A stretch of 56,410 bases of DNA, from IMG/VR virus record IMGVR_UViG_3300031759_000027, positions 1-56,410 of that record; one strand, written 5' to 3'. The notes under the pieces were generated by a model. The model was given only the letters and a program-made list of their open reading frames with translations. It was not told the DNA's origin and did not search any database. The position numbers and the translations under genes are program-made. Numbering within the stretch: position 1 is the first letter of the stretch; the number at the start of each line of letters is the position of its first letter. This document shows positions 41,934 to 54,526 of this stretch, piece after piece. The stretch is from a virus.

Positions 41934-42259
41934 GATTTTCTCCAGTAGTTTTCAAATAGACTTCACAAGACAGATATTACCACTTTCTATGGAGGTGTGA
42001 TTAAGACGCGGAATTTCGCCAAGAATGGGCTGAAATAGCAAACTCCACATGCTGCTACAGCATCTACTAGGGGGTACCGTCTCCTATTATATATACGTTA
42101 GATTAGATATTTATAATATAATTAAGATAATATATAAATAGGAAAGATAGTATATATATAATAGGGGATGGGGCCCTAAGCAGCTTGGTGTAGCGGGCAA
42201 AGCGCAAGGCTCTACGAACAAACATCTTGCAAATCAAGTACTTATAGGAAAACTACATA
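41934..42259. other. Divergent intergenic control region
   Basis: 326 bases without a gene between the leftward late block and rightward early genes. The central 42083-42165 is almost pure AT with nested inverted repeats (separate entry). On the left is a small hairpin TGCTG/CAGCA (42050-42062). On the right is a GC-rich stretch 42168-42215 with no clear fold. I see no tRNA. It is the natural place for divergent promoters and possibly the replication origin. Confidence 0.6.
42083..42165. repeat. AT-rich nested inverted repeats (candidate origin/divergent promoter)
   Basis: Outer arms CCTATTATATATAC (42083-42096) and GTATATATATAATAGG (42150-42165, one extra TA) face each other. Inner arms TATTTATA (42108-42115) and TATAAATA (42133-42140) lie within. 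Both outer arms are followed outward by G/C-rich AGGG-like bases, so the region is roughly mirror-symmetric. Easily melted DNA with symmetric ends suits an origin or paired -10 elements. Confidence 0.55.
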
Positions 42260-42739
42260 ATGTCCACAAAACCGACAACTACGCAACTAGAAGCGGCATT
42301 TCATGAAATTATTATCAAACTGCCACGTGCAAAGCGCAAGGAGCTTAGTCCACAAATTGAAGTTTTTAAGTCCTTTTTAGGTATTACTAAGGACATCGTA
42401 AACCTCGATCGTCGCTCGTTGACCTGGGCGCCTGGTAGCGAGACACGAAAAGCTGTGGAGGAAAATCGTAACCTTGAGCTCATTTTTAGAGGTGCTGACG
42501 TCATTAAATGCAACATCTATGAAGCTTCAAAGCTGCTAAATAAACCAGTTCATTCGATCAGAGTTCTTTTAGGCCGTGGTGAAGGCAAGTGGTTTGGGCA
42601 GGTCAAAGGTGAAGATGGTGAGGTAGACTTTGCGCAGCTCTATAAACTAGACAGTGAAGGTAAAAGAATCTATCAAGCTCCTGTTGCTAAGCCGAAAAAA
42701 TCAGAGTTCCAAGTTCCTGAGGGGTCAAGGTCTTACTAA
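42260..42739 (+). CDS. Hypothetical early protein
   Basis: 159 residues. QLEAAFHEIIIKLPRAKRKE, a middle with LNKPVHSIRVLLGRGEGKWF and a basic end (VAKPKKSEFQ). The SIRVLLGRGEG segment could be a DNA-binding helix pair. First rightward gene after the divergent region; family unknown. Confidence 0.6.
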   Translation: MSTKPTTTQLEAAFHEIIIKLPRAKRKELSPQIEVFKSFLGITKDIVNLDRRSLTWAPGSETRKAVEENRNLELIFRGADVIKCNIYEASKLLNKPVHSIRVLLGRGEGKWFGQVKGEDGEVDFAQLYKLDSEGKRIYQAPVAKPKKSEFQVPEGSRSY

Positions 42740-42749
42740 GCTCCATATA

Positions 42750-42778
42750 TTTACGATTGATTTTACATGCGCTATTAT
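42750..42778 (+). promoter_or_regulatory. Candidate sigma70-type promoter upstream of the primase leader RNA
   Basis: TTTACG (42750-42755), 17 bases, TATTAT (42773-42778). Predicted start near 42785, just where a long inverted repeat begins. It lacks the palindrome of the other early promoters. Confidence 0.6.
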
Positions 42779-42784
42779 CGATCC

Positions 42785-42906
42785 TGCCAGTTGAGCCGAA
42801 TGTCTACTACCTACAAGGTAGTTTGTCAAAAGCCCTCAGCAAGCCCATCGCTCAACTGGCACCTTCTTATTGGCTGAGCAAAAGAAGAAAGCGAGTCCGC
42901 TGAGGG
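42785..42906 (+). ncRNA. Structured leader RNA of the primase-helicase gene (element copy A at 42833-42906)
   Basis: Helices visible by eye: TGCCAGTTGAGC (42785-42796) with GCTCAACTGGCA (42850-42861), 12 perfect pairs; ACTACC/GGTAGT hairpin (42806-42822); CCCTCAGC (42833-42840) with GCTGAGGG (42899-42906), 8 perfect pairs. The last encloses a 5' core AAGCCCATCGC and a 3' core GCGAGTC, like three other copies near 53 kb. The 12-pair helix uses bases that could pair as GCTCA/TGAGC inside the element, so two exclusive folds are possible, as in a switch. Confidence 0.65.
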
Positions 42907-42945
42907 GACATTGACAATTAGACAGATAACCGGGAAATAATAATT

Positions 42946-45078
42946 TTGGCAACTAAACAAACGAAAAGATCTCCATCAGAGATCCTTGGTAAGCCGTCAG
43001 CTGAGTTAAAAGCTGCTGACCTTGGCTTATTAAAGTTAGCAAGTTCAGGCCTAGATCTTGATGACGCTAAAAAGTTGAGCATGTCCTTCTTAGGTCCAAT
43101 CTCCACAAGTAAGCTGCATCCCTCGTTCAAGGCGCTTAGTGCGTTAAAGATTGATTATCTTGGCATCGATGGTAAGCCCATCAGTGACTGGCACGCAGCA
43201 CCACCCTTCTACCGCATCAGGTACTTAGAAGCCGGAACTGGTTTTGATGCCATTAGTGTGAAGAAAGAAATCAGGTATACCCAAGAACCAAATACAGCTC
43301 CAGTTGCCTACTACCCTGGTAATTGTGACTGGACGAAAATTTCAAAGAACGTTGATGTGCCAATCATCATCACTGAAGGTGAGCTGAAAGCTGCAAAGGC
43401 CTGCAAGGAAGGTTTTCCGACCATTGGCCTTGGTGGTGTCTATAACTGGCGAAGCGCAAAACTGGGGTTAGGTTGGTTGCCAAGCCTAGAGCTCATTGAT
43501 TGGAAGCGGCGCAATATCTACATTTGCTTTGACTCAGACTACCAAACAAATCCGATGGTGTGTGCTGCTTTAAAAGAGCTTGCTGATGAGCTAGAGCGGC
43601 GCGGCAGCTTTGCGCACATCGTCACGCTACCTAGCCTTGATGGCTTAGAAAAGGTTGGTCTTGATGACTTCTTAGTGCATGCTGGTGTTGATGCGAATGA
43701 TCAGTTTGCAAATTTGTTACGTGTTGCTGAGCCACTTGGCATGGCCAAGGTGCTGTTCGCGTTTAATGAGAAATATGTGTATGCTGACAGTCCTGGCCTG
43801 ATTGTGAATCAGGAGACGAGTCAGAAGATTAGCCCATCTGCGTTTAAGGACCACTTAGAATCGGTGGCAAACTATCAGGAGCGGAAGCTGAAGGCCGATG
43901 GTTCAGTTGTCTTTCAAACTGTATCAGCCGGAGGAGCTTGGATTAAGTGGCCACTCAGGCAACGAGTTGATAAGATTACTTATGTGCCAGGAGCCGAGCG
44001 CTTTGTGCATGGTGAGAACCGCGTGATGCTGAATACCTGGCCAGGTTGGGGTTGCGAACCGAAAGCCGGTGATGTGCAGCCGTTCTTAGATTTGCTTGAT
44101 CACATCTTTAAGGGTGCTGAATCAGGCGCCTTGCAGTGGTTCTTACGTTGGTGCGCCTATCCAATTCAGTACCCAGGGACGAAGTTGTTTAGTAGTGCGG
44201 TGATTCATGGTATTAGACACGGAACTGGTAAGTCACTCATTGGCTATACGTTAGGTAGGATCTACGGCAAGAACTTCACTGAGATCAGCCAAATGGACTT
44301 GCACAACGGCTTTAATGAGTGGGCAGAGTCGAAGCAGCTGGCCATGGGCGATGACGTGACAGGTAGTAATAAACGGGCTGATGCCGACTTCTTGAAGAAG
44401 CTGATCACGCAGCGTGAGCTTAGGATTAACGCGAAGTTTATTCCTAGCTACACGGTCCCTGATTGCCTGAACTACTTCTTTACAGCAAACCATCCTGACT
44501 CGTTCTTTTTAGAAGACGACGATCGGCGGATGTTTGTGCATGAGGTGCATGTTGGTCCCTTGCCAGAACAGTTCTATATGGAATATGACCTGTGGCTAGA
44601 TACTGGCGGTGCTGAGGCGATCTTTCATTACTTGCTGAACTTAGATCTTGGTGACTTCAATCCAGCAGCTCCTGCCTTTAAGACAGCTGCGAAAGAGCGC
44701 ATGATCAGCAACGTGCAGAGTGACTTAGCCGGTTGGGTTCGCAGCTTACAATCTGTTCCTGATCACGTCCTTAAGGTTGGTGAGATTGTGGTGAACAAGG
44801 ACTTGTTTACAAGTAAAGAGTTGCTGCAGTTCTATGATCCATCTGGAAAGACCGGCACGACAGCAAATGGCCTGGGCCGTGAACTTGCCAGAGCAGGAAT
44901 TCGTCAGGTGATTAGCGGCAAGCCCGTTAGGTTGGCTGATGGTAGTCAAGCCAGGTACTACGCCGTGCGAAATGCTGACCACTGGTTAACAGCTGGAATA
45001 GCAGATGTGACAAGCCACCTGAATGCCTGGAACAAGGGGCATGGCGCCGGAAGCCCAGTGAAAGCTGCAAAGTACTAG
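42946..45078 (+). CDS. Primase-helicase (DUF3854 TOPRIM plus SF3 helicase)
   Basis: 710 residues. The N-terminal half has a TOPRIM-like core: PIIITEGELKAAKA, IGLGGVYNW, ICFDSDYQTN. The C-terminal half is a D5/P4-type SF3 helicase with Walker A HGIRHGTGKSLIG, QLAMGDDVTG Walker B, and FFTANHPDSFFLEDDDRRMF as motif C and Arg finger. It would prime and unwind DNA at the fork. TTG start at 42946, twelve bases after CGGGA; no ATG lies nearby in frame. Confidence 0.82.
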   Translation: MATKQTKRSPSEILGKPSAELKAADLGLLKLASSGLDLDDAKKLSMSFLGPISTSKLHPSFKALSALKIDYLGIDGKPISDWHAAPPFYRIRYLEAGTGFDAISVKKEIRYTQEPNTAPVAYYPGNCDWTKISKNVDVPIIITEGELKAAKACKEGFPTIGLGGVYNWRSAKLGLGWLPSLELIDWKRRNIYICFDSDYQTNPMVCAALKELADELERRGSFAHIVTLPSLDGLEKVGLDDFLVHAGVDANDQFANLLRVAEPLGMAKVLFAFNEKYVYADSPGLIVNQETSQKISPSAFKDHLESVANYQERKLKADGSVVFQTVSAGGAWIKWPLRQRVDKITYVPGAERFVHGENRVMLNTWPGWGCEPKAGDVQPFLDLLDHIFKGAESGALQWFLRWCAYPIQYPGTKLFSSAVIHGIRHGTGKSLIGYTLGRIYGKNFTEISQMDLHNGFNEWAESKQLAMGDDVTGSNKRADADFLKKLITQRELRINAKFIPSYTVPDCLNYFFTANHPDSFFLEDDDRRMFVHEVHVGPLPEQFYMEYDLWLDTGGAEAIFHYLLNLDLGDFNPAAPAFKTAAKERMISNVQSDLAGWVRSLQSVPDHVLKVGEIVVNKDLFTSKELLQFYDPSGKTGTTANGLGRELARAGIRQVISGKPVRLADGSQARYYAVRNADHWLTAGIADVTSHLNAWNKGHGAGSPVKAAKY

Positions 45079-45123
45079 GTATTTCACCGGTTTGAAGCTA
45101 GTAAATGTATTAGGCTGATTATT

Positions 45124-45201
45124 TTGTAAATAAGTGTTTACAAGGCTACTTTTAGGCACTATACTAGCCCTGTAGTAACAAATTAACTCTTGCTGAGGAA
45201 A
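45124..45201 (+). promoter_or_regulatory. Early promoter with palindromic operator and leader (copy 2)
   Basis: Arms TTGTAAA (45124-45130) and TTTACAA (45137-45143); -35 TTTACA (45137-45142), 17-base spacer, -10 TATACT (45160-45165). Leader TTAACTCTTGCTGAGGAAA begins at 45183. The -35, spacer length and -10 are identical to copy 1, and the spacer shares only part of its sequence, so the boxes and palindrome are under selection. Confidence 0.8.
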
Positions 45202-45207
45202 ACACAA

Positions 45208-45558
45208 ATGAAACAGATTTATAGTCACTTGATACCCTGTGAGGATCACGTGTATGTAACAGACAACTTTGGTATCTACGACCTTAAGGGCCGTGAAATT
45301 GGAGCCATCTACACGATTAGCCATTGCGAGTTTGTTGAGTACGATCCTGTTGCTCATAAGAACTATGGGTCACGCGCAATTTTACCTGGGAAGTACTTCT
45401 TTACGAACGCGCAAGCTGCTAGAGACGGCTACGCGTATGGAGCTTGTCAACCATCGAAGTTCTTTAAAACAATTGAAGAAGCGCAGCGTGAAATTGCTAG
45501 GTATTTAGGAGTTGCGAAGCTTTACGCCTTTAAGAAATACGCGAAGGAGCAAGCATGA
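45208..45558 (+). CDS. Early protein, unknown
   Basis: 116 residues, first gene after early promoter copy 2. It begins MKQIYSHLIPCEDHVYVTDN, Tyr-rich and strand-like, with a helical end (IEEAQREIARYLGVAKLYAF). ATG 45208 follows the leader's TGAGGA. No family recognised. Confidence 0.6.
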   Translation: MKQIYSHLIPCEDHVYVTDNFGIYDLKGREIGAIYTISHCEFVEYDPVAHKNYGSRAILPGKYFFTNAQAARDGYAYGACQPSKFFKTIEEAQREIARYLGVAKLYAFKKYAKEQA

Positions 45559-45854
45559 GCTGCATTAAAACTGGCTGCACCGTGCTGGCCAATGGAAAGT
45601 ATTATCACGGCGATTTGTTTTTAAGTTCATTTGGTTTTGAGCTGCGTGGTGTGCCTGAAGGTGGTGATGGCTATGAACCAAACGGACTTCATCATTGTGA
45701 AGTTTGCGAAGTTGGTGGTGTTGAGCTTGCAAAAACTTCTGGTGGGTACAAACTTTTTTGGATTCATGGATGGCTAACTGCTACAAAAGAGTTTTACAAG
45801 TATCTTCAACAATGGGAACCTGCAGCAGTTCAATACTTCAAGGTGGCAGAATGA
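45555..45854 (+). CDS. Hypothetical protein with paired cysteines
   Basis: 99 residues. MSCIKTGCTV and HHCEVCEVGG give two C-x-C/C-x2-C pairs plus histidines, a possible zinc site. The rest is Gly/Trp-rich. Four-base overlaps with both neighbours. Confidence 0.55.
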   Translation: MSCIKTGCTVLANGKYYHGDLFLSSFGFELRGVPEGGDGYEPNGLHHCEVCEVGGVELAKTSGGYKLFWIHGWLTATKEFYKYLQQWEPAAVQYFKVAE

Positions 45855-46120
45855 ACTTAAATCTTTCGCCAGAAGATCTTGCTGAATATACAAGACGATG
45901 CTTAGAGAATGAAATCAACAAGCAAGCTGCGATAGCTTGTGGCAACGTGCAAGGCGCAAAGCGCGCAAGACAAGCCAATACGTATCTTTATAAAGAGTTC
46001 GCAAAGCGTCAACTTCCTCCGTCACCACCAACACCGTGGGAGCGTGAACAATCAATGAGCTTAGAGGATCGGATAAGCCGCATTGAGCAACATTTAAAAC
46101 TAGGAGTTTGGTCAGAATGA
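45851..46120 (+). CDS. Hypothetical helical protein
   Basis: 89 residues, LSPEDLAEYTRRCLENEINK, a basic KRARQANTYLYKEFAKR segment and a Pro-rich linker before a short coiled coil (SLEDRISRIEQHLKLG). Start 45851 overlaps the previous stop by four bases. Confidence 0.55.
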   Translation: MNLNLSPEDLAEYTRRCLENEINKQAAIACGNVQGAKRARQANTYLYKEFAKRQLPPSPPTPWEREQSMSLEDRISRIEQHLKLGVWSE

Positions 46121-46317
46121 AAATCATTGAAACCAAAGAAGGAAGGGCTGTGTTTTCATTTAACGGCAGAGTGCACCCTGCAAAGCTGCTTAGATATGAG
46201 AACAATCAGTTCGAGTTGAAGCTCACGTGCTCTTGTCCTGATACTCAGAAGCTGAATGGTGTTCGCTTCTTAGAAGGACGTGATGGCATAAATTGCTTAG
46301 GATCTAGGAGACATTGA
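46117..46317 (+). CDS. Hypothetical protein upstream of the HNH gene
   Basis: 66 residues. KIIETKEGRAVFSFNGRVHP and LTCSCPDTQKLNG; it ends RDGINCLGSRRH. The HNH endonuclease follows after one base. An interrupted C-terminus is possible but cannot be shown without relatives. Confidence 0.5.
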   Translation: MKIIETKEGRAVFSFNGRVHPAKLLRYENNQFELKLTCSCPDTQKLNGVRFLEGRDGINCLGSRRH

Positions 46318-46318
46318 G

Positions 46319-46921
46319 ATGGCTAGAAAAAACGAGCGAGTTGAGACGTACATCCCAGATCTTGAAGGTGAGATTTGGAAACCTGTTGAAGGTTACGAAG
46401 ATGCTTATCATGTTTCAAATATGGGGCGCGTGAAATCATTAGATAGAGAAATTTTGACCTCACATGGAAATGTTCGCTGGGTAACTGGTAGGCTGTTAAC
46501 AGTGTCGCATGGAAAACTTGGACATCGAAAAAGTGGTGTAAACACTGGAACAGTAGTTTTTTCAAGTTGTGGCGAAAAAATTGTAGTTGTTGTTTCAAGA
46601 TTGGTGTTAAAACATTTTGTAAGTACTCCAGAAAATTTAAAAAACTTGTGGGCTATTCATCGTGATGGTAATGTAAAAAATAATTGCGTAAAAAATCTTT
46701 TTTGGGGTACTGAAAAAGAAAGCATTGACGAAAAATATAAACGCGGTAATGGCCATGAAGGTATTAAGCACCCGCACGCCAAAATAACAGATGCGCAAGT
46801 TCTTGAAGTTAGAAGACGATTTGAAGCAGGTGAAAAACAGTGCCATATAGCACGTTCAATGCAACTAACAGATAAGCTTGTTTGGAAACTTGTGCATAAA
46901 AAAGAATGGAAACATATTTAA
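46319..46921 (+). CDS. HNH homing endonuclease (NUMOD4)
   Basis: 200 residues. NUMOD4 motif EIWKPVEGYEDAYHVSNMGR with VKSLDR, HNH core AIHRDGNVKNNCVKNLFWGT, and a C-terminal helix-turn-helix (AKITDAQVLEVRRRFEAGEK, CHIARSMQL). It is visibly richer in A and T than its neighbours, with many AAA/TTT codons, as expected of a mobile gene. It makes site-specific breaks to spread itself. Confidence 0.82.
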   Translation: MARKNERVETYIPDLEGEIWKPVEGYEDAYHVSNMGRVKSLDREILTSHGNVRWVTGRLLTVSHGKLGHRKSGVNTGTVVFSSCGEKIVVVVSRLVLKHFVSTPENLKNLWAIHRDGNVKNNCVKNLFWGTEKESIDEKYKRGNGHEGIKHPHAKITDAQVLEVRRRFEAGEKQCHIARSMQLTDKLVWKLVHKKEWKHI

Positions 46922-46939
46922 CGTAAAGGAGAAGTAAAA

Positions 46940-47329
46940 ATGGCAACAAAGAAATTAGCAACGGCAGCAGAACTTGAAGCAAGCGCAAAAAAGACTGAAA
47001 AAAGAGTTTGGGGAAATAATCCATCAACAGCTCTTGTTGATGAGGTGGTGGTAGATCACCCACTTTATGACATCATGATAGCTGCAATCAATCAAGCCAT
47101 GTATGGCAAGGGTGAGCGCCACGGCGGCAACGTGACCCCGTTCATGGACCAGCCTTGGGTACATTACTCAAAGCTGCATGGTCGTGGATTCTTAACTGGT
47201 CAAGCAGCAAAGAAGTTAGAAGAAGCTGCATCGCAGCGAACTGGTGAGGCATTTGAGGCCGAGGTGCTTGGAGCTATCGTCTACGCAGCTATGGCAATTC
47301 TGAAAGACCGCGAGGATCAGGCGAAATGA
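46940..47329 (+). CDS. Conserved phage protein, unknown
   Basis: 129 residues. DHPLYDIMIAAINQAMYGKG, ERHGGNVTPFMDQPWVHYSK and LHGRGFLTGQAAKKLEEA are highly regular, with conserved-looking Arg/His/Gly. I recall similar sequences in other phages, without function. MATKKL start after AAAGGAG. Confidence 0.6.
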   Translation: MATKKLATAAELEASAKKTEKRVWGNNPSTALVDEVVVDHPLYDIMIAAINQAMYGKGERHGGNVTPFMDQPWVHYSKLHGRGFLTGQAAKKLEEAASQRTGEAFEAEVLGAIVYAAMAILKDREDQAK

Positions 47330-47436
47330 CATTTGAAGAATTTGCGATTGGTTTTTGTTTAATCTGCGCTATGTGGGCATGCAGCCTTGTAGCTGTTGGA
47401 GTTACTTATGTCGTTTACAAGCTTTGGACGGATTGA
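47326..47436 (+). CDS. Tiny membrane protein
   Basis: 36 residues, MTFEEFAIGFCLICAMWACS followed by LVAVGVTYVVYKLWTD, a single membrane helix with three cysteines. Four-base overlap with the preceding gene. Confidence 0.45.
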   Translation: MTFEEFAIGFCLICAMWACSLVAVGVTYVVYKLWTD

Positions 47437-47439
47437 ACC

Positions 47440-47640
47440 ATGAGAACCCTTGATGCGATTTGGTATGCACCAGGAATGAGCTGCATTGGAATTGTCCGAG
47501 CTGAAGATCCAATTGGAGGACCTAGGTACTACATTGGTGTTGCAGGTGGTGAAGATGAGCAAGCGGACATGGAGTTTATTGCAGCTCATGGAGCAAAGTT
47601 CAGCTGGAATGCCGGACGACTATTGTTTGGAGATAAGTAA
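47440..47640 (+). CDS. Hypothetical protein
   Basis: 66 residues, MRTLDAIWYAPGMSCIGIVR, PRYYIGVAGGEDEQADMEFI. Strand-rich and soluble. The stop and the next start share TAATG. Confidence 0.5.
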   Translation: MRTLDAIWYAPGMSCIGIVRAEDPIGGPRYYIGVAGGEDEQADMEFIAAHGAKFSWNAGRLLFGDK

Positions 47641-47858
47641 TGAAGCAAATTAAAAAGGTTGTGGTTTACTACGATGATGGTACGTATGTTGAGCTTGCAA
47701 ACAATCCTTGGAATACAGCGATGGCAAGACCTATAGAGCATATCCATACGCCGCACCCAAGATGTACATGCATACTTTGCGGTGGTTCTGACCATGCTGT
47801 AACCTGCAAACATACTTCGCATTACCAAACGACTAAAACAACAGGGGCGGCTTCATAA
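47640..47858 (+). CDS. Hypothetical Cys/His-rich protein
   Basis: 72 residues. After a strand-like start (KKVVVYYDDGTYVEL), HIHTPHPRCTCILCGGSDHA followed by VTCKH supplies at least four cysteines and several histidines, a probable zinc-binding site. Confidence 0.5.
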   Translation: MKQIKKVVVYYDDGTYVELANNPWNTAMARPIEHIHTPHPRCTCILCGGSDHAVTCKHTSHYQTTKTTGAAS

Positions 47859-48016
47859 TGTGCCTTAAATCAAGCGGTGAGTATCAGTACTGTCTACTAA
47901 AGCGCAAGGTAGCTCAATGCAAAGCAGATTGGGAAAGTTCAATTGCTTACCTGATTGCTAAACGTCGAGGTTGGTTAGAACTATTAGAGGAAGACTATGA
48001 AGCCAGGACCGTTTGA
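47858..48016 (+). CDS. Small helical protein
   Basis: 52 residues, MCLKSSGEYQYCLLKRKVAQ, then an amphipathic helix with WLELLEEDYEARTV. It overlaps the J-domain gene by 20 bases. Unknown. Confidence 0.45.
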   Translation: MCLKSSGEYQYCLLKRKVAQCKADWESSIAYLIAKRRGWLELLEEDYEARTV

Positions 48017-48296
48017 AATTATGGGCCTTGAGCTCACATCAACGCCCGAAGAGGTGAAGCAACGATGGCGAGATCTTTGCATGATCCATCATCCTGATCG
48101 GCCAACGGGGAATGCTGTTGAGTTTAATACCATCAGGCAAGCTTATAAGAAATGCATGGCAATCGCTTTGGAGCCGAAGCTTTGCGCTGATTGCAAGGGA
48201 TCTGGTAAGGTAAGGATTCAGCACGGGTTTAATACAACTGAGATTGTTTGCGGTGAGTGCAAAGGAGTAGGCCATGAGTTACCTAATCAGAAATGA
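47997..48296 (+). CDS. Mini DnaJ-like protein (J-domain plus half zinc domain)
   Basis: 99 residues. The J-domain core shows the HPD triplet at H32-P33-D34, helix II before it (PEEVKQRWRDLCMIH) and helix III after it (EFNTIRQAYKKCMA). Two C-x2-C-x-G-x-G units (CADCKGSGK and CGECKGVGH) follow, half the number in DnaJ. No substrate domain is present. A J-domain stimulates Hsp70, so the protein could recruit host DnaK for replication or assembly. Confidence 0.75.
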   Translation: MKPGPFEIMGLELTSTPEEVKQRWRDLCMIHHPDRPTGNAVEFNTIRQAYKKCMAIALEPKLCADCKGSGKVRIQHGFNTTEIVCGECKGVGHELPNQK

Positions 48297-48438
48297 GGAC
48301 AACGAGGTGATGCGTGTTGTAGGCCGCTTAGAGGAGGCTCAGATCATTTGCGCCCTTCGTCCTGGCTGGACGTTTAAGCGAGTCCTTGAAAGAAGACCTA
48401 AAAGAGATCTGAGTATATTTGAGGAGGCGTTATTTTGA
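48274..48438 (+). CDS. Hypothetical protein
   Basis: 54 residues, MSYLIRNEDNEVMRVVGRLE, then AQIICALRPGWTFKRVLERR. A small fold common in phage early regions by pattern (two strands, helix). It overlaps both neighbours. Confidence 0.5.
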   Translation: MSYLIRNEDNEVMRVVGRLEEAQIICALRPGWTFKRVLERRPKRDLSIFEEALF

Positions 48439-48803
48439 ACACCCCAATTAGCCGCGAAGAAGCTGAGGAAATAATGCTAGACGGCCATCAAAAGTATTGG
48501 TATGACAAGGGCGTTGCTTCTGCACAAACTGAGCTTGAGTACCGTAAGAAAGATAATAAGGAACTTCATGAAGAGATTTGGCAGTTAGAGGACAAAATAG
48601 CTTCATTAGAAGCGCAGTTAAGAAGAAAGCCAATATTTGAAATAAGACATCACGTTGCTTCTGCGCAGGCTGAAATAGAGGCGTTTAAAGCAAATGTGAA
48701 AGTTGTGTTAGATGCAGTTTTATATGAATATGGGTCTACGACTAACATGGTTGACGAACTTGCAAATGCTACTATTGAATTGCAGAAAAGGATAGAAAAA
48801 TGA
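48435..48803 (+). CDS. Coiled-coil protein
   Basis: 122 residues from a TTG start with GAGGAG nine bases upstream. A central coiled coil (ELEYRKKDNKELHEEIWQLE, DKIASLEAQLRR) is followed by a second helix pair. No family recognised. Confidence 0.5.
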   Translation: MNTPISREEAEEIMLDGHQKYWYDKGVASAQTELEYRKKDNKELHEEIWQLEDKIASLEAQLRRKPIFEIRHHVASAQAEIEAFKANVKVVLDAVLYEYGSTTNMVDELANATIELQKRIEK

Positions 48804-48943
48804 GCGAAATTATTTATACTTGGATCTGGCTATTTATTGCTTTTCTAATAGTTCATCCATGGGCTGCAGTAGTTCTTTATTTAATCGCAGGTTTATGCGT
48901 GTGGGATTTTATTTATACATTACATAGGACACAAGAAAAATGA
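48800..48943 (+). CDS. Small membrane protein
   Basis: 47 residues, two hydrophobic stretches (IYTWIWLFIAFLIVHPW and AVVLYLIAGLCVWDFIY) forming a hairpin. Four-base overlaps on both sides. Confidence 0.5.
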   Translation: MSEIIYTWIWLFIAFLIVHPWAAVVLYLIAGLCVWDFIYTLHRTQEK

Positions 48944-49674
48944 TATTTCAATTTCCAAAAAAGAAAATAGTTTTAGATTGCTTTACAGCAGACGAAGTGG
49001 CTATTAGAACAGCCCCAATAGATTTTGCAATTAAGCACATGCCTGAATGGTGGCAAGATTTACCAGCTACATACACGCGAGATTCATTTCCATTTGGCAC
49101 TATGAAGAACTGCGCTGGCATGGTTGACTTCTACAGGTATTCAATCGCTATTCCAATGTGGTCAGACCTAGTAATAAGCATCGGGAAAAATCAATTTAGC
49201 TGGAAATTTTCTGACTATATGTCTAGCGCAGATTTGCATAACACTGCTCAAGAAGCAACAGGATTTTTGCCGCCAAACTACAACCATCTAAAGTTAATAT
49301 CACCGTGGCATTTATCATGCAAGCAGTCTATTAACTGGTTATGGAACACTCCGTTGTATAACCTAAATAAAAATCCTGATATTTTAATTCCTCCTGGAAT
49401 TGTGAACTATTCAAAGCAAAACATAACGAATGTAAATATTCTATTCAACACAGAAAAAGAGCGCGTTATTAAATTGGCTCAGGGGTCACCTATTGCCATG
49501 ATTACCCCTATGACAGATAGAAAAATAGAAATCGTAAGGCATTTAGTATCAAGGCAAGAACTAGAACGAAAATCAAGAATACTTATCACCTTTAATCGAC
49601 CGTATGATCGCCGCAATGAATTAGTTAAAAAGTTTAAAGATTGTCCGTTTCATAATCATGTGGGAAGAAAATGA
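48940..49674 (+). CDS. Conserved phage protein, unknown
   Basis: 244 residues. IKHMPEWWQDLPATYTRD, GTMKNCAGMVDFYRYSIAIP followed by MWSDLVISI, and LKLISPWHLSCKQS. A very similar order (MP-W-W, then K-C-G-x-D near IP-W-D) appears in many aquatic phage proteins of unknown role. It is AT-richer than its neighbours, which may point to separate acquisition. Confidence 0.6.
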   Translation: MIFQFPKKKIVLDCFTADEVAIRTAPIDFAIKHMPEWWQDLPATYTRDSFPFGTMKNCAGMVDFYRYSIAIPMWSDLVISIGKNQFSWKFSDYMSSADLHNTAQEATGFLPPNYNHLKLISPWHLSCKQSINWLWNTPLYNLNKNPDILIPPGIVNYSKQNITNVNILFNTEKERVIKLAQGSPIAMITPMTDRKIEIVRHLVSRQELERKSRILITFNRPYDRRNELVKKFKDCPFHNHVGRK

Positions 49675-49853
49675 ATACTAGAATCCTTGAAGTTTTACAA
49701 GAGGTAATGTGCACATGCAATTTATCAGAAGAGCAGAAAAACGCGCTGCACTTATCAATTACAAGTCTTCTTCAACTTAAACTAGAGAACAAGACATTGC
49801 GTGAAAGAAATCAATATCTAGAAGCCCAAGTTTACGGAGGATCTACAAAATGA
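49671..49853 (+). CDS. Small coiled-coil protein
   Basis: 60 residues, LEVLQEVMCTCNLSEEQKNA then a leucine-rich coil (LLQLKLENKTLRERNQYLEA). Coupled to both neighbours by four-base overlaps. Unknown. Confidence 0.5.
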   Translation: MNTRILEVLQEVMCTCNLSEEQKNALHLSITSLLQLKLENKTLRERNQYLEAQVYGGSTK

Positions 49854-50041
49854 CAACGTTTACTGGTGACGAATATGGCGGACCTGAATTGCAGATTGGT
49901 AAGTACCGCCTAAGGTCTAACCTAACAAACTCAAAGATCCACATCAGCTTAATGGATGGTGATCGGTTTGTTGAAGCCGGGCAATTTAGCGCAAAGCAGC
50001 TAGAAGCTGTGATTGACCAGTTTTATAAGGAGAAGTTCTGA
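49850..50041 (+). CDS. Small hypothetical protein before ligase
   Basis: 63 residues, IGKYRLRSNLTNSKIHISLM, FVEAGQFSAKQLEAVIDQFY. Beta-strands followed by a helix. The stop overlaps the ligase ATG by one base (TGATG). Confidence 0.5.
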   Translation: MTTFTGDEYGGPELQIGKYRLRSNLTNSKIHISLMDGDRFVEAGQFSAKQLEAVIDQFYKEKF

Positions 50042-50946
50042 TGTCTGAATTTAAACCCATGCTTGCCAGCCCGACTGATGGTCACAAGCTTACGTTTCCG
50101 ATGCTAGTCAGCCCGAAGCTAGATGGCGTCAGGTGCCTGATCATCGACGGCGTGGCTATGAGCCGGTCACTCAAGCCCATTCCTAACAAGCACGTGCAAA
50201 AGCTGTTTGGGCGCAAGGACCTAAATGGCTTAGATGGCGAGCTGATTGTAGGACCACCAACTGCAAAAGATGTGTACAACAAAACCACGTCAGGCATCAT
50301 GACGATTGAAGGTGAGCCTGCAGTTAAGTTTTACGTGTTTGATGACTTTAGCGCCAAGGACAAGGTAAAAGAAAACTTGTTTGGTCAATCGTCTCATTTT
50401 GAACATCGATTGCTGAGTTCCATTAGAAGGATTACTTTAGAAGATAACTGTAAGGAAGTTAAGCACTACAAGGCAAATAACGAAGCTGATTTATTTCACT
50501 ATGAAGCCCACTTTTTAAAGCAAGGCTATGAGGGCATGATGCTTAGATTGCCAACTAGCCCATACAAATTTGGTAGATCTACTACTAAAGAGGCTTGGCT
50601 ACTAAAGCTAAAGAGGTTTATTGATAGTGAGGCCGAGATCATTGGCATGACTGAGCTCATGACAAACACCAATGAAGCGGTTAGAAATGAGCTGGGTCAT
50701 CTAGAGAGGTCCTCAAAGAAGGCTGGAATGAAGGGTAAAGATACCCTTGGGTCCTTGATTGTTAGAGATATTAAAACTAAGGTGGAATTTGAAATTGGAA
50801 CTGGGTTTACTGCAGAGCAGCGAGCTGGCATCTGGAAGCTAAACCCAATTGGAACACTTGTGAAATATAAGAGTCAACCTGTGGGCGTAAAAGATAAACC
50901 ACGCTTTCCGGTCTTTTTAGGCTTTAGAAACACAATAGACCTATAA
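50041..50946 (+). CDS. ATP-dependent DNA ligase
   Basis: 301 residues. Adenylation motif I is SPKLDGVRCL (Lys nucleophile in K-x-D-G), with motif III LDGELIVG, motif IV YEGMMLRLP and motif V WLLKLKRF. The C-terminal OB domain is present (GTLVKYKSQPVG). The size matches T7-like minimal ligases. It seals nicks in phage replication. Confidence 0.88.
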   Translation: MSEFKPMLASPTDGHKLTFPMLVSPKLDGVRCLIIDGVAMSRSLKPIPNKHVQKLFGRKDLNGLDGELIVGPPTAKDVYNKTTSGIMTIEGEPAVKFYVFDDFSAKDKVKENLFGQSSHFEHRLLSSIRRITLEDNCKEVKHYKANNEADLFHYEAHFLKQGYEGMMLRLPTSPYKFGRSTTKEAWLLKLKRFIDSEAEIIGMTELMTNTNEAVRNELGHLERSSKKAGMKGKDTLGSLIVRDIKTKVEFEIGTGFTAEQRAGIWKLNPIGTLVKYKSQPVGVKDKPRFPVFLGFRNTIDL

Positions 50947-50967
50947 CATGTACTAGGTACTAAAATA

Positions 50968-51038
50968 GTTGTAATTAGTTGTTTACAACAATAAAAGAAG
51001 CGCTGTAGAATAAAACTGTAATTAACTTGCTGAGGAAA
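50968..51038 (+). promoter_or_regulatory. Early promoter with palindromic operator and leader (copy 3)
   Basis: Arms GTTGTAA (50968-50974) and TTACAAC (50983-50989), same arm spacing as the other copies; -35 TTTACA (50982-50987), 18-base spacer, -10 TAGAAT (51006-51011). The leader ATTAACTTGCTGAGGAAAA starts near 51020 and lacks the internal CT found elsewhere. It lies after the ligase gene and drives the SSB/polymerase block. Confidence 0.75.
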
Positions 51039-51044
51039 AAAATC

Positions 51045-51191
51045 ATGTTTATTGAAGTTGTTGTGGTCATTGCTGCCACACTAGCCCTTATTAACTGGCT
51101 GCTCTTTGGGTCGTTGCCAGTCAACACCTTCCATTTCTATTTTGGCCTAGCCTTACTCATCATCACAATCAACAGAAAGAAAGACAAATGA
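51045..51191 (+). CDS. Small membrane protein, first gene after early promoter 3
   Basis: 48 residues, two membrane helices (FIEVVVVIAATLALINWLLF and TFHFYFGLALLIITI) and a basic end (NRKKDK). TGAGGA is ten bases upstream. Unknown role. Confidence 0.55.
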   Translation: MFIEVVVVIAATLALINWLLFGSLPVNTFHFYFGLALLIITINRKKDK

Positions 51192-51427
51192 GCTTTAATC
51201 AATTTTCTAATACTCGTCAAGAAGGCGAGTCCTTTGATGACTATCGTCTGCGCCTAAGGTCAGAGAAGTTTCGTAAGCAACTAGTTAGCCGTGGTGTTCA
51301 AGTTTGGAATAGCGGCAAGCAAGGTACTTACACAAAGATCAAAGCGATGCAGCTAAAAGCAGCGCAAGCGATGGTTCAGATCGAAAAAGACAAGCAAGCT
51401 AAAAAAGAAGAGGTTAAAAATGGCTGA
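51188..51427 (+). CDS. Hypothetical basic protein
   Basis: 79 residues, SFDDYRLRLRSEKFRKQLVS, then a lysine/glutamine-rich helix. Basic, possibly nucleic-acid binding; no family. Four-base overlap with the preceding gene. Confidence 0.5.
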   Translation: MSFNQFSNTRQEGESFDDYRLRLRSEKFRKQLVSRGVQVWNSGKQGTYTKIKAMQLKAAQAMVQIEKDKQAKKEEVKNG

Positions 51428-51818
51428 GAAAGAGGTTGTTTATAAATTTCCTAAGGGTTTAGGCGCCTGCGCCGATAAGCTATATCAAATTAAGCAGAAG
51501 CGTCTAGACGCGCAAAAGATTGTTGATGCATTTGCAGCTGAAGAATCTGCTTTAAAGAATCACATCATTGAGAATCTTCCAAAGTCTGACGCATCAGGCA
51601 TTGCAGGTAAACTTGCTAGGGTAACTGTTGTAACTAAAGAGGTGCCACAAGTAACTGATTGGGACGCGCTTTATAAGTACGTTGTAAAGACCAAGGATTT
51701 CAGCTTGTTGCAGCGCCGTGTTGGTGATGCTGCCATTAAGGAGCGTTGGGAAGCAGGTAAGGAAGTCCCTGGTGTTGGTCACTTTAATGCCGTAACAGTT
51801 AGCATGAACAAGGTTTAA
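51420..51818 (+). CDS. Conserved replication-region protein
   Basis: 132 residues. A helical coiled coil (ACADKLYQIKQKRLDAQKIV, EESALKNHIIENLPKS) precedes a strand domain (GKLARVTVVTKEVPQVTDWD, LLQRRVGDAAIKERWE). I recall similar proteins next to family A polymerases in other phages. Function unknown; replication accessory is inferred from the neighbourhood. Confidence 0.6.
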   Translation: MAEKEVVYKFPKGLGACADKLYQIKQKRLDAQKIVDAFAAEESALKNHIIENLPKSDASGIAGKLARVTVVTKEVPQVTDWDALYKYVVKTKDFSLLQRRVGDAAIKERWEAGKEVPGVGHFNAVTVSMNKV

Positions 51819-51820
51819 TT

Positions 51821-52033
51821 ATGAGGATCATTGCTCTAGCTCTCAGCGGCAACGTGTTTAGCGCAGTCAAGTGGATCAACGACAAGGTGCTTGGTCAACA
51901 CTTGCTGCAAGTAGATTGCCGCGATGGCTATAACACAGTTGCGGTCTTTAAATTTCCAGATTATCCAAGCTATGTCAGGTACTGTGAGAAGACAAAGCAA
52001 GAACCAATGAGTGCAGATGAATTTTTTAATTGA
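51821..52033 (+). CDS. Hypothetical protein
   Basis: 70 residues, MRIIALALSGNVFSAVKWIN, FKFPDYPSYVRYCEKTKQEP. Mixed strand/helix. Two-base gap after the preceding gene. No family. Confidence 0.5.
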   Translation: MRIIALALSGNVFSAVKWINDKVLGQHLLQVDCRDGYNTVAVFKFPDYPSYVRYCEKTKQEPMSADEFFN

Positions 52034-52039
52034 AGTAAG

Positions 52040-52071
52040 CAGTGTCCTTAGAGCCTGGTCTTTGGACACTG
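52040..52071 (+). other. Intergenic hairpin
   Basis: CAGTGTCC (52040-52047) and GGACACTG (52064-52071) form eight perfect pairs around a 16-base loop, in the 87-base gap before the SSB-like gene. No U-tract follows. It lacks the AAAGC and GCGAGT cores of the nearby RNA family, so I keep it separate. Confidence 0.5.
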
Positions 52072-52120
52072 AACATTTAACCGCCAGGGACTAGTCACTA
52101 GTTACTAATAGGAGCATCAA

Positions 52121-52984
52121 ATGGCAACAACAAAACGAGCAGCAACAAAAGACGCGGCAGCTAAGGGAACTGGCACCGCAATTACTAAATGGGAAGAAGA
52201 ACTTGCTAAGCAAGCTGATGTTGCATCAGCAATGGAAGCAAATGCTGGTGGAGGTCAGTTCTTTAGTTTAAAGTCAGGCATTCTCAGCTGGCAAGACGCT
52301 CCGCTGCCTGGAAATCAGATGGCAGTCATCATCGTTGACGGCATTCTTGAGAACGTGTTTTACGAAGGTGAATACGATCCAGATACCCCACAGGGACCAA
52401 CTTGCTTTGCGTTTGGGCGTGAAGAGAAAACAATCGCGCCGCATCAACTAGTTGTAGAGGCTGGCAATGCGCAGCATGATCAGTGTCATGGTTGCCCAAT
52501 GAATGAATGGGGTACAGCAGATAAAGGCAAGGGTAAAGCTTGTCGTAACAGCCGTCGCTTGGCGATGATTCCGGCTGGTAACTTTGACCAGGCGGGAAAG
52601 TTTCAACTGTTTGAAGATGAGGATCACTTTGCATCAACACCAATTGCGTTTATGAAGTTACCTGTGACCTCAGTAAAGGGTTATGCAGGCTTTGTTAAAC
52701 AAGTTGCTGGTGCACTTCGTCGTCCACCGCATGGCATCATCACGAAGGTGAAGGTTGTTCCAGATCCGAAGAGCCAATTCAAGGTGTTATTTGAGCCTAT
52801 CATGAATGTACCTGATGAGTACATGAGCATCGTCATGCAGCGCCATGAAGAAGGTAAATCAACTATTGACTTTCCATACCAACCGTTTGACGCTGAACAA
52901 GCACCAGCACCAAAAGCAAAGAGCCGCGCAGCTCAGCGCCCACCGGTAAAAGGTAAGCCAGCAGTTAAAGGTCGTAAGTATTAA
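52121..52984 (+). CDS. Probable ssDNA-binding/replication protein with zinc motif
   Basis: 287 residues. The centre has CHGCPMNEWGTADKGKGKAC followed by RNSRRLAMI, a C-x2-C...C cluster that could bind zinc. Strands around MAVIIVDGILENVFYEGEYD and a basic, Ala/Lys-rich C-terminus follow. The position before polymerase and recognisable relatives in other phages suggest an SSB-like role, but I cannot show an OB fold. MATTKR start after AGGAG. Confidence 0.55.
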   Translation: MATTKRAATKDAAAKGTGTAITKWEEELAKQADVASAMEANAGGGQFFSLKSGILSWQDAPLPGNQMAVIIVDGILENVFYEGEYDPDTPQGPTCFAFGREEKTIAPHQLVVEAGNAQHDQCHGCPMNEWGTADKGKGKACRNSRRLAMIPAGNFDQAGKFQLFEDEDHFASTPIAFMKLPVTSVKGYAGFVKQVAGALRRPPHGIITKVKVVPDPKSQFKVLFEPIMNVPDEYMSIVMQRHEEGKSTIDFPYQPFDAEQAPAPKAKSRAAQRPPVKGKPAVKGRKY

Positions 52985-53002
52985 GGTTTGAGCGGGAAAG
53001 AA

Positions 53003-53053
53003 CCTCAGGACTAAAAGCAATGCTTTGGACAGCGGCGAATTTTAGTTCTGAGG
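53003..53053 (+). ncRNA. Structured RNA element copy B
   Basis: CCTCAGGACT (53003-53012) pairs with AGTTCTGAGG (53044-53053), one G-T pair; four further A-T pairs may extend it. Inside: 5' core AAAAGCAATGC (53013-53023), a short loop with GCT/AGC, and 3' core GCGAAT (53035-53040). It is the shortest copy and so shows the minimal form. It lies 28 bases before the ATG of the next gene. Confidence 0.6.
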
Positions 53054-53081
53054 ATCGATCCGAAACACACAGGAGAATAAG

Positions 53082-53459
53082 ATGTCAGATACAAATGAGA
53101 TACTAGACGCAAAAGAAATAGCGACAGAAATACCGCAACCAGATACAAAAGTTGCGATGAAACAAAACAAAGGTTTTTGTAAACTTGATTTAGAACCTGT
53201 TGTCTATAGGACTAAAGCTTTTACCTTAACTGCAGAAATCGCGATGCGCCTGCTTGAAAAGTTTGCGATGGTTACTTGCATCGAAGACGGTGAGGACAGC
53301 GCAGGTCGTCAAAAATTAAAGCTTATGGACCCAAAACACGTGGTAGATAGGTCGTTTGAACTTGCTGAAGAGTTTATGCACCAAGCAGATTTAGGAAACT
53401 ATATTGTTGACATTCCAGATCCTGCTTTTGATGTTCCCGCAGCAGAAGATTTAGATTAA
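53082..53459 (+). CDS. Hypothetical early protein
   Basis: 125 residues, acidic (NEILDAKEIATEIPQPDTKV, ending AAEDLD). A central helical part (FTLTAEIAMRLLEKFAMVTC). Preceded by AGGAG and RNA element B, followed by element C. Family unknown. Confidence 0.55.
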   Translation: MSDTNEILDAKEIATEIPQPDTKVAMKQNKGFCKLDLEPVVYRTKAFTLTAEIAMRLLEKFAMVTCIEDGEDSAGRQKLKLMDPKHVVDRSFELAEEFMHQADLGNYIVDIPDPAFDVPAAEDLD

Positions 53460-53466
53460 ATTTTAC

Positions 53467-53539
53467 GGGGTGAAAGCAATGACACTATTCAGCTCAAGTA
53501 CTCGAAGACGAACGACTAAAAAGACTTGCAAGTAACCCC
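53467..53539 (+). ncRNA. Structured RNA element copy C
   Basis: GGGGT (53467-53471) pairs with ACCCC (53535-53539). 5' core AAAGCAATG (53473-53481), inner helix CAAGT/ACTTG with a TCG/CGA hairpin, 3' core GCAAGTA (53528-53534). The bases after it, CCCCACCCAATTTAG, match those after copy D almost exactly. It lies 22 bases before the next ATG. Confidence 0.65.
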
Positions 53540-53560
53540 ACCCAATTTAGAAAGGTTGTT

Positions 53561-53770
53561 ATGAAAAGTATGCAGTATGAAAAACAAGTTGCAAAAATTA
53601 TTAAGCCGCTCAAATATATTAGGGAAAACGACGGTATGTGGGTTGTTCACCCTAAACAAGGAAAAATTTGGGAGCCTGATAAGCTTTACAAGATTGCTTT
53701 GTTGGCAGCAAAAGCTGGTAATGGTCTTCGTGTAAATCAGATAGCATTTGGTTTGTTAAAAGCAGCTTAA
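53561..53770 (+). CDS. Hypothetical basic protein
   Basis: 69 residues, basic: MKSMQYEKQVAKIIKPLKYI, VVHPKQGKIWEPDKLYKIAL. Flanked by RNA elements C and D. No family recognised; nucleic-acid binding is possible. Confidence 0.55.
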   Translation: MKSMQYEKQVAKIIKPLKYIRENDGMWVVHPKQGKIWEPDKLYKIALLAAKAGNGLRVNQIAFGLLKAA

Positions 53771-53775
53771 TCACC

Positions 53776-53872
53776 GGGGCAAAAGCGGATGCTGTGAATG
53801 GCAACCACTGGGAATTTCTTTAAGAAGGAAATTAAAGATTGCGACCCCAGCACAGACGCAGCGAGTAGCCCC
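53776..53872 (+). ncRNA. Structured RNA element copy D
   Basis: Nested helices: GGGGC (53776-53780) with GCCCC (53868-53872), CTGTG with CACAG, CTGGG with CCCAG, and AATTTC with GAAATT at the tip. 5' core AAAAGCGGATGC (53781-53792); 3' core GCGAGTA (53861-53867). It is the largest copy, with an insertion only in the tip. It is followed by CCCCACCCATTTTAG and an AGGAG ribosome site for the next gene. Confidence 0.68.
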
Positions 53873-53891
53873 ACCCATTTTAGGAGTTAAC

Positions 53892-54293
53892 ATGACAACA
53901 GAAGTTGCAGAAAATAAGACGTTTCAAGAGCGTATGTTTGAACGCATTCGCGATCAGATGGGCGACCTCATGACTCAAGAAGAGCTTAAGAAGATCGTTG
54001 AGACGGCAGTTGATAAAGCCTTCTTTCAGCCAACAGTCATTAAGCGCGACTATGGGCGAGATGAAACAGCACCTCCACCTTTTGTAAAACTTGTGGAAAA
54101 AGAATTGCAAGAACAAGTGCAAACTTATGCGTCAGCCTGGATGAAGGACAACTCAGACAAAGTTGAAAAGATTATCAACGACGCAATTGGTAAGGGGATG
54201 TTTGGAATTATTACCTCCTACGTTGAAGGAATTGCAAGGCAGCCGCTGTATAACTTTGCTAACGAGCTTAGAAATAAGGGCCTTCTTGTTTAA
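53892..54293 (+). CDS. Hypothetical helical protein
   Basis: 133 residues. Predicted all-helical: FQERMFERIRDQMGDLMTQE, VEKELQEQVQTYASAWMKDN, ending ANELRNKGLLV. Good AGGAG ribosome site. Function unknown; downstream of RNA element D. Confidence 0.55.
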   Translation: MTTEVAENKTFQERMFERIRDQMGDLMTQEELKKIVETAVDKAFFQPTVIKRDYGRDETAPPPFVKLVEKELQEQVQTYASAWMKDNSDKVEKIINDAIGKGMFGIITSYVEGIARQPLYNFANELRNKGLLV

Positions 54294-54313
54294 GAGATCT
54301 ATTTGAGAAAATT

Positions 54314-54526
54314 ATGTATAAAAAAGAAATTAAGAACACAGCTTTAAAATCATGGATTGGTTTAAATGATTTTCTACCAACTGCAGATGAAGCAGTCTGC
54401 AAACAACTACTCCGTGAAGAGATGAAGGGAAGATCAAGAGAGTCTTTTTTAAACCGCATCCACAGCCGCTTGAACAAGGTCAGGGCTGATCGTGAGCGTG
54501 CTGAGTTGAAAGAAAAATCAAAATGA
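54314..54526 (+). CDS. Small basic protein before polymerase
   Basis: 70 residues, TADEAVCKQLLREEMKGRSR, ESFLNRIHSRLNKVRADRER. The charged helix pair resembles small nucleic-acid-binding helices. It overlaps the polymerase ATG by four bases. Confidence 0.55.
   Translation: MYKKEIKNTALKSWIGLNDFLPTADEAVCKQLLREEMKGRSRESFLNRIHSRLNKVRADRERAELKEKSK

Follow-up and report, generated by a model that had tools for sequence, protein, structure and literature searches.

An uncatalogued structured RNA family in uncultured phages, usually found once per genome and directly behind an upstream gene

Gene 32 of phage T4 encodes the single-stranded DNA-binding protein (SSB) of this phage. Its messenger RNA (mRNA) was the first that was reported to be cut by ribonuclease P (RNase P), and other mRNAs are cut as well (PMC11143913). 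Besides operon mRNAs, the substrates of this enzyme other than transfer RNA (tRNA) precursors include the precursors of 4.5S RNA and transfer-messenger RNA and the phage C4 and M3 RNAs. In bacterial tRNA precursors, the determinants of recognition are G+1, C+72, A+73, C+74 and C+75, with positions 73-75 (RCC) base-paired to GGU in the RNA of the enzyme (PMC11143913; PMC12710915), and stems that are no tRNAs but carry a 3' RCC are also cut (PMC12710915). Here, we describe an RNA element that occurs twice in a 56,410-base virus record (IMG/VR record IMGVR_UViG_3300031759_000027; this whole stretch is called the window) and that resembles these substrates, a likeness read from sequence alone: a C precedes G1, G1-C72 is the closing pair, ACC follows at the 3' side, and the place is intercistronic, with the SSB mRNA of a phage as the precedent. 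Unlike these substrates, the element has a loop-E-like module, a GGA/CA loop and an exchangeable head, and it lacks a CCA end.

Several other described systems come close in some respects. The put RNAs of phage HK022 are structured phage RNAs of about 70 nucleotides (nt) in early transcripts, and they work without a dedicated protein (PMC9378689). Integron attC sites share with the element an imperfect hairpin after a stop codon and a variable terminal part, but the element has no GTT/AAC ends, pairs in the manner of RNA and keeps a fixed gene neighbourhood. In the twister and twister-sister ribozymes, conserved internal loops and another stem also lie within P1; their conserved bases differ, however, and there is no Rfam match. 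The element belongs to a strongly covarying RNA family that occurs in hundreds of contigs of uncultured phages, is missing from Rfam and is usually present once per genome, at a fixed distance behind genes for single-stranded DNA-binding proteins of unrelated families.

Two window sites belong to a widespread phage RNA family

An earlier note on this DNA had proposed one family of four structured intergenic RNAs. All four sites lie in the replication half of the window, which holds a primase gene, an ATP-dependent ligase gene and a DNA-polymerase-like open reading frame (ORF) running off the record end. The letters quoted for them proved exact, on the + strand. As a single family, however, the four sites do not hold together: This is ruled out by the scores of a descriptor based on sites 3 and 4 and by those of the covariance model R1, whose training set comprised 77 copies from other phages and excluded the window. 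The extended sequence GGGGY-RAAAGC ... GCRAGTA-RCCCC-ACCCA is common to sites 3 and 4 alone. The descriptor does not single out site 1, the score of site 2 is reached by chance about 8 times per shuffled window, and both sites rank among the chance matches. With R1, site 4 reaches 61.2 bits (E 3.5e-16). When the filters are off, site 3 has 18.3 bits, whereas site 2, at 2.3 bits, is at the level of noise and site 1 has no match at all. Sites 1 and 2 have neither the AGUA strand nor the end signature of the family; they are ordinary stem-loops that fold better than shuffled sequences (z -2.9 and -5.2, respectively). R1 matches are also absent from the relatives of the polymerase and primase of the window phage (L006-L024), which at the place of site 2 have terminator-like hairpins, as judged by inspection.

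42833-42906, + strand: reported site 1, a non-member stem-loop that precedes the primase gene
53003-53053, + strand: reported site 2, a strong hairpin of 14 base pairs (bp), not a member

The membership of site 3 was confirmed independently by a near-identical copy in unrelated phage contigs (L298/L309), which has two differences in its inner portion and lies between unrelated flanks and other genes. The fifth pair of P1, the closing helix, changes there from U-A to C-G, and the protein encoded upstream has the start and the acidic tail of SSB-like groups.

Sites 3 and 4 are members of an RNA family that is widespread in uncultured (freshwater) phages. A first IMG/VR scan with a pattern from the two sites (GGGGNRAAAGC...GCRAGTANCCCC) gave at least 120 matches, most of which share bases outside the pattern: GCGGATGCTG in the 5' part, CAG(TG or ACG)CAGCGAGTA in the 3' part and an ACC that follows the stem. 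The same pattern had 14 matches in 257 Gb of bacterial genomes; three of these appear real, and all three show the full consensus and come from metagenome-assembled genomes (MAGs) labelled beta-proteobacterium or Limnohabitans. A second IMG/VR scan used the core only, with P1 unconstrained and a second base of P1' other than C, and again gave at least 120 matches. Among the 120 listed copies of this P1-free scan, 107 form a closing helix of at least four pairs, with variants as different as GGGGCC/GGCCCC, GAACCC/GGGTTC, GAGGTC/GACCTC, CAACATC/GATGTTG, TGAAG/CTTCA and one of 14 bp. In an alignment of 77 copies (A3), 95.8% of the cells are paired and 10 of the 14 pairs show double changes, percentages that are inflated by the filter applied to it (at least four pairs in P1 and three in P2), whereas the count of 107 is unfiltered. 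The covariation score of A3 is 0.411, as compared to 0.124 after shuffling and at most 0.111 for slid partners. The covariation that the earlier note had ascribed to the closing helices is real, but it lies across other phages, whereas its own four-site comparison had set unrelated stem-loops side by side. Selected RNA structure, inner bases that are conserved on both strands and flank a variable hairpin zone, and further copies with compensating changes, many of them in IMG/VR phages, are all borne out by the family.

The family is uncatalogued, as the earlier note had suspected: Rfam 15 gave no match to the window at the gathering threshold and nothing relevant over the element when window positions 42000-56410 and 16 loci were searched at E up to 5, the sole exception among the loci being a tRNA within the head of one copy (L161), below its threshold, and we found no description of the motif in the openly licensed papers that were searched. 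Among GenBank phages and plasmids, BLAST identified one clear example in the metagenomic phage MW202879.1 from Manatee Spring, in which the element is unannotated. On the MAG contig L161, a sub-threshold Rfam match to a Betaproteobacteria toxic small RNA lies near the element (positions 2208-2265, - strand; 24.4 bits, threshold 50).

From 5' to 3', the order is stop codon, a spacer of 4-8 nt, P1 beginning at G after a C, the RAAA/RAGUA loop, GC/GC, the GGA/CA loop, P2 with the variable head, P1', ACC and the ribosome-binding site (RBS). P1 has 4-7 bp, mostly 5 or 6. RAAA opposite RAGUA has the letters expected of a bulged-G (loop E, sarcin-ricin) module and may form one: Next to a helix, it fits GAA/AGUA, and R/R changes occur at the positions expected for this motif, which is a motif rather than a family and is assigned here by sequence. 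Further inward follow the invariant GC/GC, the loop of GGA versus CA, a U-G wobble that never varies and a pair that is either G-C or G-U. Because of this wobble and the many G-U pairs in the helices, the element seems to act as RNA rather than as DNA. P2, sometimes preceded by a bulged A, covaries well, and the head ranges from a few bases to about 60; it is minimal in L086, with 44 nt for the entire element. A short type lacks the second (GGA/CA) loop. The two window members are composed as follows:

53776-53872, + strand: site 4, full-length element
53776-53780, + strand: P1 5' strand GGGGC, paired with GCCCC at 53868-53872; P1 covaries in the family
53781-53784, + strand: AAAA, 5' side of the loop-E-like internal loop, conserved as RAAA
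53785-53786, + strand: GC, paired with 53861-53862; paired in 77 of 77 A3 rows and invariant, hence giving no covariation evidence
53787-53789, + strand: GGA, second internal loop, opposite CA at 53859-53860; conserved in the first scan although outside its pattern
53790-53796, + strand: P2 5' strand UG and CUGUG, paired with CACAG at 53851-53855 and CG at 53857-53858, with A 53856 bulged; P2 covaries
53797-53850, + strand: hypervariable head, exchanged between phages
53863-53867, + strand: GAGTA, 3' side of the loop-E-like loop, conserved as RAGTA
53868-53872, + strand: P1 3' strand GCCCC
53873-53875, + strand: ACC directly 3' of P1, found in most family contexts
53467-53539, + strand: site 3, short type, with P1 GGGGT/ACCCC, the GAAA/AAGTA loop and GC/GC, without the GGA/CA loop
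53540-53542, + strand: ACC directly 3' of P1

The element does not have the GC stem and U run of an intrinsic terminator, P1' being followed by ACCU, and no terminator was called at sites 3 and 4. Pairing of ACC with the GG of the second loop was considered but is not supported, as one copy (L125) carries AA there yet retains ACC. In L303 (positions 1381-1413), L308 and L323, we observed a collapsed element of 33 bases, GGGGGGAAAGCACCAGACGCAGCGAGTACCCCC, which has kept P1 and both core strands and has lost the head and P2.

Genomic place and exchange of the head

A stop codon lies 3-9 nt ahead of P1 in 163 of 204 cases, most often at 5 nt, and the commonest distance from P1' to the next ATG is 18 nt. 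Since the upstream spacing is tight and the downstream genes vary (polymerase, primase, MazG and small unknowns), the element goes with the upstream gene. The replication-side location given in the earlier note therefore stands, but its view of the element as a leader of the downstream gene does not. The upstream proteins, 134 after deduplication and taken from mechanical ORF calls of which some short ones may be spurious, include mutually unrelated families of single-stranded DNA-binding proteins: the gp2.5/Enc34 type (14), the phrog_7364 type (12), the DUF669/phrog_6015 type (9) and SSB PF00436 (7). The largest group, with 21 proteins, is phrog_27714, which is possibly an SSB; its homologues have an acidic C-terminal tail, and the fold search with a low-confidence model (pLDDT 60) gave no significant fold match; no solved relative was found either. 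The window has a gene of this family as well:

52121-52984, + strand: gene of phrog_27714, which elsewhere precedes the element more often than any other family
53082-53459, + strand: ORF upstream of site 3
53457-53459, + strand: stop codon that ends the gene before site 3, separated from P1 by 7 nt
53561-53770, + strand: ORF between the two members, matching no family
53768-53770, + strand: stop codon that ends the gene before site 4, separated from P1 by 5 nt
53892-54293, + strand: ORF downstream of site 4, starting 19 nt after P1'

The small window ORFs have no homologues beyond near-identical contigs of the window phage. A few upstream ORFs of alignment A5 match anti-defence domains, the Acb2/Tad1 hairpin domain in two cases and a Tad2-like domain in one.

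Exactly one R1 match is present in 48 of 50 whole virus records, and one of the remaining two (L080) has the short type by sequence. Multiple copies occur in the window (two) and, as tandems, in L067, L079 and L133. In these tandems (L067, 1558-1678; L079, 1181-1311; and L133), a long type with P1 GAGG/CCTC is combined with a short type with GGGGG/CCCCC. In bacterial genomes, the element is rare: It is present in 4 of 401 genomes from a single family and in 1 of 398 from the phylum, with the MAG that served as anchor counted in both cases.

The heads are exchanged between phages. In 34 contig pairs, both 120-base flanks are at least 75% identical and the heads are as unlike as random ones; in L038 and L143, for example, the flanks are 96 and 98% and the heads 49% identical. 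Conversely, 70 pairs share heads of at least 80% identity in unrelated flanks. Altogether, 219 copies fall into 124 head families. The head may be dispensable, as heads fold only slightly better than shuffled sequences (median z -0.5) and the entire L086 copy measures 44 nt. Two heads are called as tRNA bodies, tRNA-Arg(TCG) at L161:1904-1973 and tRNA-Thr(TGT) at L185:1100-1172, with the acceptor stem replaced by P2; no tRNA gene was called in the window. The Arg-like head of L161 recurs in L044, L072, L094 and L100. The T-loop-like GGTTC is found in more heads than expected (16 of 158 heads, 4.5 expected), but in a minority, so that T-loop mimicry would not apply to all heads. A CsrA/RsmA sponge was discarded, with GGA in 80 of 158 heads versus 71.7 expected and no excess of unpaired GGA.

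A possible RNase P processing element and the alternatives

The outer end of the element is conserved while the sequence of P1 varies. Of 68 copies from the P1-free scan, 67 have G-C as the outermost pair and 53 have C as the preceding base, and ACC directly follows P1' in 169 of 214 family contexts, against a background of about 1%. Thus, the ends G1-C72 and R73-C74-C75 are present together with a stem, as a feature of the letters. Because this signature covers the positions read by RNase P, with the T4 gene 32 mRNA as a precedent, we tentatively favour, as a possible rather than a probable function, an intercistronic mRNA processing element that would be cut by the RNase P of the host. The element would act in cis, in processing and stability between cistrons: The transcript would fold once the upstream stop codon has been passed, the basal stem with its C before G1 and its C72-A-C-C end would be presented in the likeness of a tRNA acceptor end, and RNase P would cleave 5' of G1. 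The products would be an upstream (SSB) mRNA with a short tail and a downstream mRNA with its 5' end locked in a stem, and the output of SSB might thereby be decoupled from that of polymerase or primase. The head would be unneeded for recognition and could be swapped freely by recombination via the conserved arms; that some heads are tRNA bodies was counted in favour of RNase P. If the enzyme cuts the element, phages separate the expression of SSB and polymerase by a tRNA-end mimic, and the isolated precedent of T4 gene 32 is extended to a dedicated element. The chemistry would then be of a known type, and the family, its link to SSB genes and the exchangeable head would still be new.

Several observations speak against this function. 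At the fourth position behind P1, U rather than A prevails, and a perfect ACC is missing in 32 of 100 contexts of the P1-free scan. Neither the loop-E-like module nor the GGA/CA loop is known as an RNase P determinant, so that their conservation would need a second reason, such as a protein or docking site. After deduplication, roughly every second upstream gene lacks an annotation for single-stranded DNA binding, the largest group, phrog_27714, being a suspected SSB, and in some lineages it is a terminator rather than a gene that comes after the element.

Among the alternatives, a small RNA or decoy that acts in trans fares best, although we consider it rather unlikely. It would consist of a constant base for docking and a replaceable head for specificity. 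The base would bind a common factor of host or phage, and the head, sometimes a tRNA body, would aim at a target specific to the host or to a rival phage. This would explain the diversifying exchange of heads (the 34 pairs that share flanks but not heads, the 70 that share heads, and the 124 head families), the tRNA-Arg and tRNA-Thr bodies called as heads and the single copy per genome. On the other hand, the head can be minimal, as in L086, most heads are weakly folded, a terminator of its own would be unusual with the RBS within about 18 nt, and swapping via short conserved arms may be neutral. A little less probable is the extension of this idea to a modular RNA arms race, in which heads, including captured tRNA bodies, would be traded through the conserved arms to choose the target in a host or competitor, usually from a single copy per genome next to the SSB gene. 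Should the head have a target, the element would be a natural modular RNA with swappable domains.

It is unlikely, in our estimate, that the element is a protein-binding site, e. g. for autoregulation of SSB or for a translational or stability factor that recognizes the loop-E-like base. Two conserved internal loops in a short stem and the link to genes for single-stranded DNA-binding proteins would fit such a site, but these proteins are unrelated, which makes a common autoregulator unlikely, and the conservation of the outer pair and of ACC would be left unaccounted for. More doubtful again is an antiterminator of the HK022 put type, i. e. a nascent RNA that would bind RNA polymerase and allow read-through of terminators across the replication operon: The element resembles put in size, structure, its place in an early operon and its single copy per genome, and it follows a stop codon where Rho could load; yet put consists of two stem-loops (PMC9378689) rather than one enclosed stem, put sites are near early promoters whereas the element is inside the operon after particular genes, and R1 misses HK022, with a best score of 11.2 bits that is not significant (E 0.49).

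A new small self-cleaving ribozyme appears improbable. Strictly conserved core strands, variable P1 and P2 and dispensable peripheral stems such as the head are the usual plan of small ribozymes, but no Rfam ribozyme matched at E up to 5, the loop E is a structural motif rather than a known active site, and two additional conserved regions are located outside the stem. Least of all do we expect a DNA element acting as single-stranded DNA (a replication origin, a primosome site or an integron-like recombination hairpin), for which the usually single copy in the replication module beside polymerase or primase genes and a head exchange reminiscent of recombination sites would speak, since the invariant U-G wobble and the G-U pairs, the fixed orientation relative to the genes, the exact fit between stop codon and RBS and the lack of attC-type GTT/AAC ends all argue against it.

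Other features of the window

Two further features of the window were observed. An AT-rich imperfect inverted repeat (42072-42176) with arms of 44 nt that are 73% complementary lies between divergent gene blocks and is possibly a control region. Moreover, positions 45137-45210 and 50982-51046 hold two similar promoter-plus-leader units, in which TTTACA, a spacing of 17-18 nt and TATACT or TAGAAT are followed by CTTGCTGAGGA before the start codon; the leader of these units is also present in the relatives L009, L010, L018 and L022.

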